A stretch of 64,000 nucleotides of DNA. Source: Pseudoflavonifractor sp. Marseille-P3106. GTDB taxonomy: Bacteria > Bacillota > Clostridia > Oscillospirales > Oscillospiraceae. The position numbers and the translations under genes are program-made. Positions 27,043 through 45,835 of this stretch are shown here, piece after piece (the stretch's first letter is position 1; each line of letters starts with the position of its first letter). The notes beneath the pieces are model-generated. The model did not search any database, was not told where the DNA came from, and worked only from the letters and a program-made list of their open reading frames with translations. Where the stretch lies: assembly GCA_900169975.1 (NCBI GenBank), contig LT827124.1:62001-126000 (forward strand). Direction: 5' to 3'.

Positions 27043-27088
27043 CCGGCGGAGCCGGGCCCTGAGCAGGGCCCGGCTCCGCCGGCCTTTT
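27043..27088. terminator. intrinsic terminator between udk and the M20 amidohydrolase
   Basis: Perfect 18-bp GC-rich stem (27043-27060 with 27065-27082) followed by CCTTTTATT. It ends udk and, on the other strand, overlaps the very end of the amidohydrolase gene. Confidence 0.9.
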
Positions 27089-28274
27089 ATTGGATGGCTC
27101 CGGTGAGCCAGCGGAAGGCGTACTCGGCGTGAAGAGCCGCCGTGATGGGAAGGGCCCCCTCGTCGATGTCGAAGCGGTTGTTGTGGTGGGGCAGGACGGT
27201 GTCCGGCTTGTCCGGGTTGCCGCTGCCTACAAAGGCGTAGCAGCCGGGGACAGTGAGCAGGAACTCGGCAAAGTCGTCCCCGCCCAGGGAAAGGGCGCGG
27301 TCAGTGATCAGGGCCTGCTCTCCGAAGAGACCGGCAACGGCCTGTCCCACCTCCCGGCACACGCCGGGGTCGTTGAGCAGGGGGGCGGCGAAGTCCTCCC
27401 ATTCCACGTCGGCCTCCCCGCCGTAGAGCTTGGCGGTCTCCCGGCACAGGGCGTCCAGTTCGGCCTTGGCCTGGGCCCGGGTCTCCGGGGAGAAGGCGCG
27501 GATGGTGCCCTCCAGCTCGGCGGACTCGGCCACGATGTTGTAGGCGGTGCCCGAGCGGAGCATCCCCACGCCGATGAGCAGGGGGTCCACCGGGGAGGTG
27601 CGGCGGGTGACCAGGGCCTGGAGCGTGACCACGATCTGGCTGGCAATGTAGAGGGCGTCCACCCCCCGGTGGGGGGTGGAGACATGGGCGGCCTTACCCC
27701 TGACGCGGATGGTGAAGTGGTCCACCGAGGCGTTGTTGGGTCCCGGCTTCACGCCCACGGTGCCCACCCGGAGGTCGGAGGCCATGTGGACTCCGAACAC
27801 CCGGCCGGAACCCTCCAGCAGCCCCTCCCGGACAAAGACCCGGCCGCCGTAGCCGATCTCCTCAGCCTGCTGGAAAAAGAGGCGCACCTCGCCGCCGAAC
27901 TCCGCCCGGTGGGCGTACAGGAGCCGCGCGCCGCCCAGCAGCCCGGCGGCATGGGCATCGTGGCCGCAGGCGTGCATCCGGCCCGGGATCTGAGAGCAGT
28001 AAGGCACGTCGGTCTTTTCGTCCTGCATGGCCAGCGCGTCGATGTCGGCCCGGAGTGTGATGATCCGCTCCCCCGGCTTTACGCCGTGAAACACGGCGTA
28101 AACGCCGGTTTCCTCCACCCGGCGGTGATCGGTGATACCGATGTCGTCCAATTCCCGCTCAATGCGCTCTGCCGTCCAGAATTCCTGGCGGCTCGCCTCG
28201 GGGTGACGGTGGAATTCCTCCCGCAGGCCGGTGAGCTGTGGGGCCATGGCCTGCGCCTCTTCCCAAAATCCCAT
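27087..28274 (-). CDS. M20 family metallo-amidohydrolase
   Basis: Cytoplasmic zinc amidohydrolase of the M20D group (HipO/AbgB/IAA-amino acid hydrolase type), 395 residues. Metal-binding residues are visible in MHACGHDAHAAGLL and the catalytic QQAEEIGYGG, and SLGGDDFAEFL carries the late ligand region. Such enzymes split N-acyl amino acids. The gene follows metQ by 77 bases with a hairpin between them, so it is the last gene of the methionine uptake operon. A plausible role is releasing methionine from imported N-acyl-methionine or a related conjugate; that substrate is inferred from context only. AAGGAGG precedes ATG 28274. Confidence 0.92.
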   Translation of the reverse strand: MGFWEEAQAMAPQLTGLREEFHRHPEASRQEFWTAERIERELDDIGITDHRRVEETGVYAVFHGVKPGERIITLRADIDALAMQDEKTDVPYCSQIPGRMHACGHDAHAAGLLGGARLLYAHRAEFGGEVRLFFQQAEEIGYGGRVFVREGLLEGSGRVFGVHMASDLRVGTVGVKPGPNNASVDHFTIRVRGKAAHVSTPHRGVDALYIASQIVVTLQALVTRRTSPVDPLLIGVGMLRSGTAYNIVAESAELEGTIRAFSPETRAQAKAELDALCRETAKLYGGEADVEWEDFAAPLLNDPGVCREVGQAVAGLFGEQALITDRALSLGGDDFAEFLLTVPGCYAFVGSGNPDKPDTVLPHHNNRFDIDEGALPITAALHAEYAFRWLTGAIQ

Positions 28275-28351: not shown

Positions 28352-29221
28352 TCAATACGCGAAAGCGGGGATGTAGGTGCCCTGGAAGATTTCCTCAATG
28401 GCGGCGGCCGTCTCGGCGGACTGGTAGGCAGCCAGGACCTTTTGATAGACTTCGTTGTCCAGGTCGGCGGTGCGGACAGCCAGAATGTTGATGTAAGGGT
28501 TGTCGCTGCCCGGCTCCACCCGCTCGGTGTAGATGGCGTCCTCCAGCTTCAGGCCGTTGTCCACCGCGTGGGCGCCGTTGACGAAGGCGGCGGCCACGTC
28601 GGGGATCAGGCTGGCGGTGTTGGCGGCTTCCACCTCCACAAACTCCAGCTTCAGGGGATTGTCGGTGATGTCCTTGAGCTCGGGGGTGTAACCGGCGGCG
28701 GGGTCGACCTTGATGAGCCCGGCGCTCTCCAGGATCTTGAAGCAGCGGCCCTCGTTGGTGGGATCGCTGGGTACGGCGATCTTGTCGCCCTCCTTGATCT
28801 CTTCGGCGGAGGTGATCTTGTCGGAGTAGAGGCTCAGGGGGGCGATAATGGTGTCGCCCAGGACAGAGATGTCATAGCCCAGATCGGCGATCTCTTTGTT
28901 CAGGTAGGCCTTGTGCTGGAAGGCGTTCATGTCGATCTCACCGGCGTTCAGAGCCTCGTTGGGGAGCTTGTACTCGGAGAACTCTACCATCTCGCACTTG
29001 ATGTTGTCTTTGGCCAGCAGCTCGTTGACGGTGTCCCACTGACCGTTGTTGGCGCCCACCACGCCCACCTTCACCACGGTGGCAGCGGCGGCGGACTCAG
29101 CGGGAGCGGCGCTTTCGGCGGGAGCGGCGGATTCGGCAGGCTTGCCGCCGCAGGCGGCCAGAGACAGGGTGAGGGCGGCAGTCAGGCCCAGGGTGAGCAG
29201 TTTCTTCTTGTCCATTTTCAT
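28352..29221 (-). CDS. metQ: methionine ABC transporter substrate-binding lipoprotein (MetQ/NlpA)
   Basis: Lipoprotein of 289 residues that captures methionine outside the membrane for the MetNI transporter. The signal peptide ends in SLAAC with a lipidated Cys near residue 24, followed by an Ala/Glu/Ser repeat linker (PAESAA three times). The NlpA-family domain shows VKVGVVGANNGQ, NAGEIDMNAFQHKAYL and AVPSDPTNEGR. AGGAGG precedes ATG 29221. Order metN-metI-metQ is standard. A 186-base gap separates it from metI and contains the hairpin repeat copy B. Confidence 0.95.
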   Translation of the reverse strand: MKMDKKKLLTLGLTAALTLSLAACGGKPAESAAPAESAAPAESAAAATVVKVGVVGANNGQWDTVNELLAKDNIKCEMVEFSEYKLPNEALNAGEIDMNAFQHKAYLNKEIADLGYDISVLGDTIIAPLSLYSDKITSAEEIKEGDKIAVPSDPTNEGRCFKILESAGLIKVDPAAGYTPELKDITDNPLKLEFVEVEAANTASLIPDVAAAFVNGAHAVDNGLKLEDAIYTERVEPGSDNPYINILAVRTADLDNEVYQKVLAAYQSAETAAAIEEIFQGTYIPAFAY

Positions 29222-29363: not shown

Positions 29364-29411
29364 CTCTATGGAAGTTCTCTTTGCTGACTTTCTCTTTTAA
29401 GAGAAAGTCAG
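29364..29411 (-). repeat. stop-codon-associated hairpin repeat, copy B
   Basis: Reading the minus strand, the metI stop codon itself lies in the 5' arm: 29411-29399 pairs perfectly with 29396-29384 (13 bp), followed by CAAAGAGAACTTCCATAGAG. Relative to copy A the outer stem bases changed on both sides (CCCA/TGGG to CTGA/TCAG), so pairing is preserved. Confidence 0.65.
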
Positions 29412-30088
29412 TGGGTGGAGCGTTTGACGATCTGATTGCCGATGGCCTGGATGAGGCTGACCAGCACGATGATGATGAGGACGACCACGACGCTGATGTC
29501 GGGCTGATTTTTACCGTGGCCGTACATGATGGCAAAGTTTCCCAGGCCGCCCGCGCCGATCGCGCCGGCAATGGCGGTGAAGTTGATGAGGGAGATGAGG
29601 GTGATGGTGACGCCCCGGGCGATGCCGGGAATACTCTCCCGGAGGTAGACCCGCCAGACGATCTCCCGGGGGGAGCAGCCCATGGCCTGAGCCGCCTCGA
29701 TGAGGCCGTCCGGCACCTCGGCCAGAGCCCCCTCCACCTGGCGGGCCAGGTAGGGGATGGTACCGAACAGAAGCGGGATGATGGCGCCCTTGACTCCGAT
29801 GGCGGTGCCCATGATCAGACGGCTCAGGCCCAGGAGCATGACGGCCAGCAGAATGAAGGGGATGGAACGGAAAATATCGCAGAACTTGCCCACCACCAGG
29901 TGGACCGGCCTGTTTTGCAGAATGCCGCCGGGCTTGGTGGTAAAGAGAAGCACGCCCAGGGGAATGCCCAGCACCAGAGAGATGCCCCCGGCGATCCCGA
30001 CCATCTGAATGGTCTGAAGGAAGGCCTTCCAGAGAAGGTCGGGCTTCTCCATGACGTTGGGGATGATGGAAGAGAGAAAATCAGCCAC
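29408..30088 (-). CDS. metI: methionine ABC transporter permease MetI
   Basis: Inner-membrane permease of 226 residues with about five transmembrane helices, forming the translocation path of the D/L-methionine importer. The EAA loop that contacts the ATPase is visible in LIEAAQAMGCSPREIVWRVY. Other MetI-typical segments are GGISLVLGIPLGVLLF and GAIGAGGLGN. It overlaps metN by 8 bases. The stop codon is part of a hairpin repeat. Length and topology are normal. Confidence 0.95.
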   Translation of the reverse strand: MADFLSSIIPNVMEKPDLLWKAFLQTIQMVGIAGGISLVLGIPLGVLLFTTKPGGILQNRPVHLVVGKFCDIFRSIPFILLAVMLLGLSRLIMGTAIGVKGAIIPLLFGTIPYLARQVEGALAEVPDGLIEAAQAMGCSPREIVWRVYLRESIPGIARGVTITLISLINFTAIAGAIGAGGLGNFAIMYGHGKNQPDISVVVVLIIIVLVSLIQAIGNQIVKRSTH

Positions 30089-31109
30089 GCTTCAGCACCT
30101 CCGCCCGCACATTTTTTGACGTCCAGTACTCCAGAGCCTCCTGGACCCGGTCGCCGCTGAGAATGGCCACCAGTCCGCCCAAAGGCGCGTCCTCGATGAC
30201 TTCCAGATTGCTGTAAATAATGTTGATATCGATCCCGAACCGGCGGGAGATATCGGAAATAATGGCCTCGGAGACGTTCTTCCGGGTATAAGTCATCCGG
30301 ACGATCATTTCGCCCGGCTTCAGCTCCACCATGGGGGAGCCGGCTTCGATGAGCTCCTCCACCTTGCTCAGGTTGGAGGTGGTGGCGATAAAGGAGCGGG
30401 TCACCGCCTCTCTGGGCGTGGAGAAGATGGAGAACACATCGCCCATCTCCACCACCCGTCCGCCGTCCATGACGGCCACCCGCTGGCAGACGTCCTTGAC
30501 CACCGCCATCTCGTGGGTGATGATGACCACGGTGATCCCGGTCTTGCGGTTGATGTCCTGAATGAGCCGGAGGATGGAGCGGGTCGTCTGGGGATCCAAC
30601 GCGGAGGTGGCCTCGTCGCAGAGGAGCACCTTGGGATCGCTGGCCAGAGCCCGGGCGATGGCCACCCGCTGCTTCTGACCGCCGGAGAGCTGGGAGGGGT
30701 AGGCGCCGGCCTTGTCGGGGAGGCCGACCAGCTCCAGCAGAGCCTTGACCTTGCCGGCCTGCTGTTCGGCGGTCAGCGCCGAACCCTTGAGTGGGAAGGC
30801 CACGTTCTGCGCCACAGTGCGGGAAGGCATCAGGTTGAAGTGCTGGAAGATCATGCTGATCTTTTTGCGCTCCTGCCTGAGCTCCCGCTCCGGCATTCGT
30901 GTCAGCTCCCGGCCGTCCACCGTCACGGTGCCTTCGGTGGGGCGCTCCAGCAGATTGATGCAGCGCACCAGGGTGGACTTGCCCGCCCCGGAGTAGCCGA
31001 TGATGCCGAAGATCTCACCCGCTTCGATTTTCAGAGACACGTCCCGCACGGCGTGGACGCCGCTCTCCGCCCCGCCGAAGGTCTTGCTGACATGTTCAAG
31101 CTGGATCAT
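30081..31109 (-). CDS. metN: methionine ABC transporter ATP-binding protein MetN
   Basis: ATPase of the methionine importer, 342 residues. Walker A GYSGAGKST, signature LSGGQKQRVAIARAL, Walker B VLLCDEATSALD and the switch His in ITHEM are intact. The C-terminal NIL domain (about 260-342), which binds methionine and inhibits transport in characterised MetN proteins, is present with a region ending LGGLVAILSGD. Start ATG 31109 follows GAGGG with 7-base spacing. First structural gene of metN-metI-metQ-amidohydrolase. Directly upstream is a Met-rich leader ORF and an intrinsic terminator, indicating transcription attenuation. Confidence 0.96.
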   Translation of the reverse strand: MIQLEHVSKTFGGAESGVHAVRDVSLKIEAGEIFGIIGYSGAGKSTLVRCINLLERPTEGTVTVDGRELTRMPERELRQERKKISMIFQHFNLMPSRTVAQNVAFPLKGSALTAEQQAGKVKALLELVGLPDKAGAYPSQLSGGQKQRVAIARALASDPKVLLCDEATSALDPQTTRSILRLIQDINRKTGITVVIITHEMAVVKDVCQRVAVMDGGRVVEMGDVFSIFSTPREAVTRSFIATTSNLSKVEELIEAGSPMVELKPGEMIVRMTYTRKNVSEAIISDISRRFGIDINIIYSNLEVIEDAPLGGLVAILSGDRVQEALEYWTSKNVRAEVLKRG

Positions 31110-31130
31110 GTATATCCCTCATTTCCAAAG

Positions 31131-31172
31131 AAAAACAAAAAGAGTGGGAAGCGTCGCCGCTTCCCACTCTTC
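31131..31172 (-). terminator. attenuator terminator in the metN leader
   Basis: Perfect 14-bp stem: 31172-31159 pairs with 31154-31141 around a GCGA loop, followed by TTTGTTTTTC. It lies between the leader peptide stop (31209) and the metN start (31109), so metNIQ can be expressed only if it is avoided. The C-rich block 31195-31207 is partly complementary to 31164-31175, the 5' arm, and is a candidate antiterminator strand. Confidence 0.9.
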
Positions 31173-31208
31173 CCAGCTGCAAATGCACCCCCAGGGGGGG
31201 AGTGTGGC

Positions 31209-31307
31209 TTATCGGAAGACAACAGGTGCGGAGGCGCAAGGCATCGTGGGCATCGGCATCATAGCCATGTCCATCATCCGCATCATCATTCCATAACAGT
31301 ATGCCAT
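31209..31307 (-). CDS. methionine-rich leader peptide of metNIQ
   Basis: A 32-codon ORF with ATG at 31307 and TAA at 31211-31209. AAAGAGGTG lies 7 bases upstream of the ATG, an excellent ribosome-binding site. Eleven of 32 residues are Met, concentrated in GMMMRMMDMAMMPMPTMP (residues 6-23). An in-frame ATG at 31361 overlaps the promoter -10 box and cannot be in the transcript. The peptide is followed by an intrinsic terminator and metN. By analogy with trp, his and leu leader peptides, ribosome stalling at Met codons when charged Met-tRNA is scarce would favour readthrough. A metal-binding Met/Cys peptide is a less likely alternative. Confidence 0.8.
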   Translation of the reverse strand: MAYCYGMMMRMMDMAMMPMPTMPCASAPVVFR

Positions 31308-31359
31308 ACCAGCGCACCTCTTTCCCAATTCCCCGACCCGGGTTTTCTTGTTGGGATTC

Positions 31360-31388
31360 ATATTAGCACCCCCAAACCTGTCTGTCAA
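31360..31388 (-). promoter_or_regulatory. SigA-type promoter of the methionine uptake operon
   Basis: Minus-strand TTGACA (31383-31388), 17 bases, TAATAT (31360-31365). The start point near 31353 gives a leader of roughly 245 bases before metN, containing the Met-rich ORF and the terminator. No S-box or T-box consensus is seen in this leader. Confidence 0.88.
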
Positions 31389-32607: not shown

Positions 32608-32683
32608 TGGAGCTGGGAGTCGGACTCGAACCGACGACCTGCGCATTACGAATGCGCTGCTCTACCAACTGAGCTATACCAGC
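32608..32683 (-). tRNA. tRNA-Thr (anticodon CGT)
   Basis: The minus strand folds as a 76-base tRNA including an encoded CCA. The D-arm segment TAGCTCAGTTGGTAGAGC, the anticodon loop TTCGTAA (anticodon CGT) closed by GCGCA/TGCGC, and the T-arm GGTTCGAGTCC are all present. The acceptor stem has one non-standard pair (T-C at position 6). It decodes ACG. Confidence 0.95.
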
Positions 32684-45587: not shown

Positions 45588-45835
45588 CAAAAAGACCTCG
45601 TCCTCCATAGGACGAAGTCTTTTACTCCGTGGTACCACCTAACTTCACGGGCCTGGCCCGCGCGCTCTGCGCCGTAACGGGGCGTCCGTTCCCGTCTACT
45701 GGGCTCTCGCCGTTCTGCGGGACCGCTCTCGGGTGATGTTCGGCTCACGCCCCTCACGGAAGCTCACACCGGCCGCTTCCTCTCTTGGCTTGCGGGGCGG
45801 GCCTACTTGCCCGGTCACTGCGTTTTTGATGATTG
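45588..45835 (-). ncRNA. T-box riboswitch leader of ilvBNC, specifier reading ATC (Ile)
   Basis: The minus-strand leader between the promoter and ilvB carries the T-box core GGTGGTACCACGG (45627-45639) and just after it a terminator stem (45590-45603 with 45610-45623, 14 bp with one wobble) plus T-run. Stem I features include AGAGAGGAAG and GGTGTGAG, and the likely specifier loop GAAC-ATC-ACC puts ATC at 45735-45737, an isoleucine codon. Uncharged tRNA-Ile would stabilise the antiterminator and switch on branched-chain synthesis. The specifier is my reading, not a computed fold. Confidence 0.92.

Follow-up and report, generated by a model that had tools for sequence, protein, structure and literature searches.

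The metNIQ methionine-uptake operon of Pseudoflavonifractor sp. Marseille-P3106 is very probably controlled by a ribosome-mediated, methionine-specific transcription attenuator, a reading drawn from 64,000 nucleotides (nt) of contig LT827124.1 (assembly GCA_900169975.1, positions 62,001 to 126,000), here called the window. Between the promoter and metN stand a short open reading frame (ORF), preceded by a Shine-Dalgarno (SD) sequence and rich beyond expectation in methionine (Met) codons, and an intrinsic terminator; in the genus, moreover, an antiterminator excludes that terminator and is freed by a modelled ribosome stall, in 11/15 leaders above shuffled sequence. These are the marks of a leader-peptide attenuator. 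Translation of the leader, stalling of the ribosome, termination in vivo and a response to methionine are what we infer from them. The attenuator is best explained as a little-documented form of a classic mechanism, and similar switches seem to exist, largely unnoticed, in many related gut bacteria. An initial annotation, made from this DNA alone, had proposed a methionine leader-peptide attenuator; comparative evidence supports that proposal, with a different partner for the antiterminator and a reach beyond this species and its genus.

In the proposed mechanism, three helices compete for the nascent leader RNA. When charged Met-tRNA is ample, the ribosome would pass the Met codons towards the stop codon and cover segment 2, whereupon the terminator (helix 3:4) would form and transcription would end. 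When charged Met-tRNA is scarce, the ribosome would stall between codons 7 and 19/22; the stalled ribosome, or one queued behind it, would prevent segment 1 from pairing and leave segment 2 bare just ahead, and the bare segment would pair with segment 3 before the terminator 3' arm is made, so that metNIQ would be transcribed. On a leader carrying no ribosome, segments 1 and 2 would pair, the ribosome-binding site (RBS) would be hidden and the terminator would be free, giving a default-off state, which of all the states has the least support from the predicted folds.

Conservation of the leader within the genus

The promoter, the 32-codon ORF with its 11 Met codons and RBS, and the perfect 14-bp terminator that the initial annotation had read in this leader were all borne out, the terminator coordinates to within 1-2 bases (Table 1). 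The same is true of the RBS-hiding pairing it had proposed: AGGTGCG (31319-31313) and CGCACCT (31230-31224) are perfect complements and are predicted to pair when the RNA is folded without a ribosome. A scan of the window places a terminator-like hairpin at 31175-31136. Among the short ORFs with an SD sequence in the 450 nt 5' of metN, the best one has a Met count that 0 of 5000 dinucleotide shuffles reached (p=0.0002); this count, 11 internal Met codons, was taken from an earlier start in the same frame, one overlapping the -10 box.

A 301-nt leader query found matches in 16 of 60 genomes, namely its own and 15 congeners, and in 0 of 44 from other genera; all 16 genomes of the genus that were examined have the leader. 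Each match holds a Met-rich ORF, of the type M[AT][YH]xYGMMMxxMDMAMMPMP in 15 and reading MKYRHDDMMMEMMDMAMMLMPRLLRVSTSTF in one (G012). By script, metN lies 80-168 nt after the leader in 14 genomes; its start is visible by eye at L005, and at L009 the contig ends before metN. TTGACA and a TA...T hexamer, at a spacing of 16-18, occur 63-82 nt 5' of the leader start in all 16. In the codon table of the genus (15 of the 16 rows, G012 (L017) omitted), Met codons 7-9, 12, 14, 16, 17 and 19 are unvarying, which makes nine Met positions counting the start, and only synonymous change is seen at Gly6 (GGA/GGT/GGC), Ala15 (GCT/GCC/GCG) and Pro18 (CCG/CCC), which indicates that the peptide is retained while the bases vary. 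The initial annotation had suggested looking in relatives for an ATG-rich ORF with synonymous change, and an ATG-rich ORF is seen in all 16 genomes of the genus. In the contigs of 84,980 species the exact peptide pattern of the genus occurs in 32 stretches, 15 of which are leaders of this genus; the other 17, judged by eye and without a search of their surroundings for metN, are unlike such leaders, most being longer frames rich in Met or lying opposite Asp/His-rich genes. The exact peptide is thus genus-specific, which says nothing on the mechanism in other genera. One congener (G015; C54:9253-9289; L023, L024) matches the terminator hairpin a second time, about 2 kb 5' of the leader.

Mutually exclusive helices

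Alignment and folding in the genus cover 15 of the 16 leaders, with L009 (contig end) omitted. In this alignment a segment near the 3' end of the ORF (segment 2, majority CGCGCCTCC) complements the leader's own RBS (GGAGGCGCG) and also, with one interruption, the terminator 5' arm (GCGGGAAGCGCG), and the three helices 1:2, 2:3 and 3:4 share segments and are mutually exclusive. The terminator 3:4 is paired in 98.1% of cells with 16 double-change cells (0/500 shuffles as high), and a strong intrinsic terminator is present in 15/15 complete leaders, which agrees with the conserved terminator that the initial annotation had suggested as a check. The antiterminator 2:3 is paired in 93.1% of cells (0/500 shuffles as high), a percentage biased in its favour by a register that came from member folds; slid versions reach at most 58.3%. 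It has 8 double-change cells (3/500 shuffles as high) and a covariation score of 0.260 versus 0.170 (0/500), although related sequences may exceed such column shuffles without any structure. Helix 1:2, which would hide the RBS, is paired in 92.6% of cells, and its slid versions in at most 67.8%.

A covarying antiterminator had likewise been suggested as a check in the initial annotation. It does covary in the genus, but its partner is the ORF end, 31224-31236, and not the C-rich block 31195-31207 that had been paired with 31164-31175: the C run is present in 1 of the 15 aligned leaders, the window's own. The C-rich block was rejected as an antiterminator arm; when a stall is modelled, it is taken up in a local hairpin, 31204-31186. 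Across the genus a hairpin of altered sequence lies at a similar place between leader ORF and terminator, in several congeners including the stop codon.

The ribosome was modelled by folding only the RNA ahead of it, cut before the terminator 3' arm. With the ribosome stalled at Met codons 7 to 19-22, the terminator arm is paired upstream with a mean probability of 0.61-0.89 in 15/15 leaders, and with the ribosome at codon 25 this probability is at most 0.30 in 12/15. Expressed as energy, the hold on the arm amounts to 5.0-18.3 kcal/mol with a stall at Met19 (Met20 in G012), and in all 15 leaders it is weaker with the ribosome at codon 24, with the ribosome at the stop (2.0-9.7 kcal/mol) and in free RNA (0.6-7.3 kcal/mol). 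Given that a shorter RNA necessarily loses pairing, shuffled sequence is the fair control, and the stalled-state antiterminator beats it at p<=0.05 in the 11 leaders mentioned above. In the six species inspected for this, the complete terminator is the stable fold even in the stalled state, and the model therefore requires the antiterminator to form earlier. In classic attenuators the antiterminator likewise forms first.

Met-rich leaders across the order

MetN was found at E<=1e-100 in 7 of 150 genomes of the family (3 from the window's own genus) and at E<=1e-75 in 113 of 394 genomes of the order. Upstream DNA was examined at all 118 places on the order list except the window's own, and at 3 from the family search. 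For all 20 amino acids in turn, excess was then scored in short SD-preceded ORFs within 450 nt upstream at 120 of 121 loci (L175 omitted), all outside the window's genus and combining the 3 family-search loci with those of the order search; four regions were shorter, at 124-418 nt (L083, L107, L160, L178). So far as the fetched DNA shows, 89 of the 120 operons are metN-first and 31 metQ-first.

Met is the sole strong outlier among the 20 amino acids, with an excess at p<=0.01 in 42/120 operons and at p<=0.05 in 56/120; the corresponding counts are 5 and 17 for Cys, 3 and 12 for Ala, and 2 and 10 for Arg, the rest having 0-2 at p<=0.01. Controls at p<=0.01 gave Met 2/120 on the reverse strand (others 0-3) and 0/14 for uridine-kinase upstreams. 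Eighteen close-MetN operons (E<=1e-106 or better) lie in other genera, and all but L071 are headed by an SD-preceded leader that contains 3-10 internal Met codons; the Met excess is at p<=0.01 in 15 of these 18, versus 27 of the other 102, and at p<=0.05 in 17. Their peptides diverge from the genus type, ranging from MKRFVTTMMMR to MTICGFVMMMAMFMCGMMMMPRFVLPAGSSCRMG, and such leaders also precede metQ in some metQ-first operons. A scorable hairpin and T run starts 12-78 nt after the stop in 39 of the 56 leaders at p<=0.05 and is absent from 17, and the antiterminator is significant (p<=0.05 against 100 shuffles) in 14 of the 39 scored, against an expectation of about 2.

In many leaders before metN or metQ (L070, L073, L075, L127, L170 and others), Met and Cys alternate, as in MCMCM and similar strings. 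This alternation, together with the second rank of Cys in enrichment, hints at a possible joint sensing of both sulfur amino acids. Leaders in six genomes of one genus (g193; L128, L133, L145, L157, L158, L162) share the string MCMMCGxARFSA about 200 nt before metN, which suggests that parts of the peptide other than Met may matter in that genus. At L167 (1232-1283), in a genome of this order, there is a match to the Streptococcus sRNA family SpF59 (RF02440).

Weighing the attenuator against other explanations

Several observations, besides the favourable bias in the antiterminator's pairing percentage, weigh against the attenuator. The double changes of the antiterminator fall in 4 pairs, a number equalled by 61/500 shuffles, and helix 1:2 has zero double changes and does no better than column shuffles across the 15 leaders, so that conservation alone speaks for it. 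In the ribosome model the arm is not yet freed at codon 25 in 3/15 leaders (window 0.52, G004 0.70, G013 0.77); it is paired upstream at a probability of at least 0.5 in 8/15 with the ribosome at the stop, via weaker pairings, and in 8/15 in ribosome-free RNA. The antiterminator of the window species is not better than shuffled sequence (7.8 versus 8.6±2.9 kcal/mol): 10 pairs are predicted (31226-31236 with 31155-31167), yet 57% of shuffles hold the arm equally firmly. Nor is that of G010, its nearest relative, any better (5.0 versus 6.4±2.5 kcal/mol), and the comparison gives p=0.08 for G007 and p=0.11 for G012. In other genera a significant antiterminator is missing from 25 of the 39 scored leaders, and a Met signal at p<=0.05 is absent in 64 of the 120 operons, some of which may have genes that are not operon-first or are not methionine transporters. 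Finally, methionine starvation should also starve initiation.

Of the alternatives, an arrest-peptide sensor survives best and is nevertheless unlikely. Here the nascent leader peptide would stall the ribosome upon free methionine or S-adenosylmethionine (SAM), and it is the peptide sequence, not Met-tRNA charging, that would be read; TnaC exemplifies the kind. Such a sensor might explain why Tyr5, Gly6, Asp13, Ala15, Pro18 and Pro20 are unvarying in the 15 genus rows, which is more than a plain Met run needs, and why a DMA(x)M(x)MPM-like string comes again in other genera at L067 (DMAVMPM) and L068 (DMARMAMPM). However, the peptide sequence is kept within the genus and not across genera: peptides of the order are diverse in length, in position and in their neighbours, going as far as MKRFVTTMMMR and MQTQTKKIALSMMMC, and the enrichment across the order is strong for Met alone, with Cys a weak second.

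Whether the leader might instead act via translation or Rho, and not through a choice between terminator and antiterminator, must also be considered. The 17 non-genus leaders lacking a scorable hairpin and T run are in keeping with this, as are two weak ones among the 39 (L186, L187, about -6 kcal/mol), but the strong intrinsic terminators of the complete genus leaders and the terminator-like hairpins of those 39 others make it very unlikely. Further, the product of the ORF could be a small Met-rich protein with a function of its own, such as copper binding, the promoter being simply shared. MxxM-type Met motifs do bind Cu(I) in other proteins; against this stand the terminator that separates ORF from metN, the use of the ORF's own 3' bases in the RNA switch, and the occurrence of such ORFs before both metN-first and metQ-first operons with no single peptide common to all genera, all of which render the idea highly improbable. 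The last alternative, control of the operon by a known methionine RNA, whether S-box or Met T-box, with the ORF incidental to it, can be set aside almost entirely: such RNAs are present at some close MetN operons in other orders of the class, and the window's own genome has one before metK, but there is no Rfam match at the gathering threshold in the leader or in the scanned leaders of congeners.

S-box and T-box RNAs at related operons

An S-box or Met T-box found in the leader by covariance search was named in the initial annotation as grounds for abandoning the attenuator. The Rfam scan of the whole window, at the gathering threshold, found no match to S-box (SAM-I, RF00162) or T-box (RF00230) in the leader; the same scan does detect a T-box leader at window 45605-45827 (-). 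Neither was found at this threshold in 12 of the 15 other genus leaders, nor in L060-L063 and L065-L092. The one S-box found in the own genome precedes metK (L064 1501-1597 (-); TIGR01034 above cut-off), and in this organism SAM synthesis is apparently under a riboswitch and methionine uptake under a leader peptide.

Among the 64 operons without a Met signal, the 40 that were Rfam-scanned yielded 0 S-boxes and 2 T-boxes (L156, L169), 7 more yielded none, and 17 are unscanned. A crude motif scan found T-box-like strings in 5 of the 64; three of these (L112, L130, L163) have no Rfam match, and L180 and L183 belong to the loci not Rfam-scanned. In other orders of the class, MetN matches in 12 of 391 genomes, the own one included, led to 11 close loci. 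An S-box lies just upstream in two (L096, L098) and a T-box in two (L097, L100), and L101 and L103 have a T-box about 1.3 kb upstream; at L093 (G761) a candidate Met/Cys leader, MNRMMHAACCISQRAGNMTMAMSLMCC..., stands before metN and is followed by a hairpin and T run. At four of the 11, neither S-box, T-box nor Met leader was seen, L099 offering only 213 nt upstream. Three sensor types before close MetN thus imply that sensors have been exchanged at the metN operon. In the window's order, the putative leader peptide is the commonest sensor found before metN/metQ operons.

The operon and its surroundings

The features of the leader and of the operon are collected in Table 1. An amidohydrolase gene lies directly 3' of metQ (window 27087-28274 (-); TIGR01891 above cut-off); it is perhaps co-transcribed, and our guess is that it releases methionine from N-acyl or peptide forms. 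A tRNA gene is found at window 32611-32683 (-), about 1.2 kb 5' of the leader. In the own genome, a profile search did not find the B12-binding MetH domain PF02965; homocysteine methyltransferase PF02574 is present in two pieces, one above cut-off.

Table 1. Features of the predicted attenuator and the metNIQ operon, in window coordinates
Feature	Position	Strand	Basis
Promoter, sigma-70 type, TTGACA-17-TAATAT, extended TG before -10	31360..31388	-	Pattern match, 10/12
RBS of leader ORF, AAAGAGGTG	31315..31323	-	Sequence; GAGG unvarying in 15 aligned leaders
Segment 1, AGGTGCG	31313..31319	-	Pairs with 31230-31224 (segment 2), hiding leader RBS; predicted fold
Leader ORF, 32 codons, 11 Met including start, MAYCYGMMMRMMDMAMMPMPTMPCASAPVVFR and stop	31209..31307	-	Sequence
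Segment 2, 3' end of leader ORF	31224..31236	-	Partner of segment 1 or segment 3
Local hairpin between leader stop codon and terminator; contains most of C-rich block	31186..31204	-	Fold
Segment 3, terminator upper 5' arm and loop	31155..31167	-	Antiterminator partner of 31226-31236; 10 predicted pairs
Intrinsic terminator, 14-bp stem 31171-31158 / 31153-31140, loop GCGA, T-rich tract after	31128..31171	-	Sequence, pattern scan
metN, methionine ABC transporter ATPase with NIL domain	30081..31109	-	Pfam ABC_tran and NIL; best NCBIfam TIGR02314 MetN, 390.2 bits, under 499.7 cut-off
metI, permease	29408..30088	-	Best NCBIfam NF008049 MetI, 191.8 bits, under cut-off 212
metQ, substrate-binding lipoprotein	28352..29221	-	Pfam Lipoprotein_9 1.5e-73; sole NCBIfam matches are MetQ/NlpA models, under cut-off

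Relation to known systems

Amino-acid leader-peptide attenuators are classically those of trp, his, leu and thr in enteric bacteria, and to our knowledge methionine is a gap among them. The present leader is like the enteric attenuators in its short ORF enriched for the amino acid that the operon serves, its SD sequence, its terminator and its helices 1:2, 2:3 and 3:4. It is unlike them in that the amino acid is Met, also the initiator, that the host belongs to the Clostridia, that the operon serves uptake, and that helix 1:2 hides the leader's own RBS. Methionine genes in Firmicutes are controlled by S-box and T-box RNAs, often via premature termination; such leaders differ in binding SAM or tRNA directly, without an ORF, and none was detected here.

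The only earlier methionine leader-peptide proposal found in the literature searched is metL of Streptomyces lividans TK24, put forward from RNA-seq in one genome (PMC8079986). It is similar in placing a Met-containing leader peptide (MSTTSDRTPATEATTTPGARCMCRRMCAF, with Met beside Cys) before metNIQ, and differs in its three Met including the start, its leaderless start and its phylum; its authors report no typical Rho-independent terminator for it (PMC8079986). A 2005 Actinobacteria survey states that no conserved RNA regulatory structures were seen upstream of methionine operons (PMC1262725). Nearer to the Clostridia, two further reports describe His leader peptides of hisS and hisZ in bacilli, which for hisS substitute for T-boxes (PMC2965389), and a Leu-rich attenuator peptide in S. 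aureus (PMC5794164); both are likewise leader-peptide attenuation in Firmicutes and differ from the present case in amino acid, genes and class. Among the papers listed for Clostridia, Ruminococcaceae and wider terms, none mentions a Met leader peptide in its title or the opening of its abstract; the literature searched was mostly open literature, so that an earlier mention elsewhere is possible. The mechanism class is thus known, and for the methionine version in this lineage, its breadth and its self-hidden RBS no description was found in that literature.

Implications

Given that methionine is also the initiator amino acid, its starvation should also hamper translation of the leader. A bolder proposal, which we consider doubtful, is that the leader is a two-checkpoint sensor, in which the charging of elongator tRNA-Met would be read by stalling and that of initiator tRNA by whether any translation of the leader takes place, an untranslated leader letting 1:2 pair and the terminator win. 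The result would be a band-pass response, with uptake open at moderate but not at extreme starvation; the peptide device would replace S-box and T-box RNAs at many uptake operons of the order, and genera with Met-Cys leaders would read Cys too. Such leaders may in any case serve as natural constructs for separating initiation from elongation responses to methionine shortage. They are also a further class of short genes, one that gave no Rfam match in the leaders scanned. More broadly, close MetN operons of one class appear to use three RNA sensors, S-box, T-box or leader peptide, and the presence of Met-rich leaders in many genomes of one gut Clostridia order suggests wide evolutionary use of the peptide solution.

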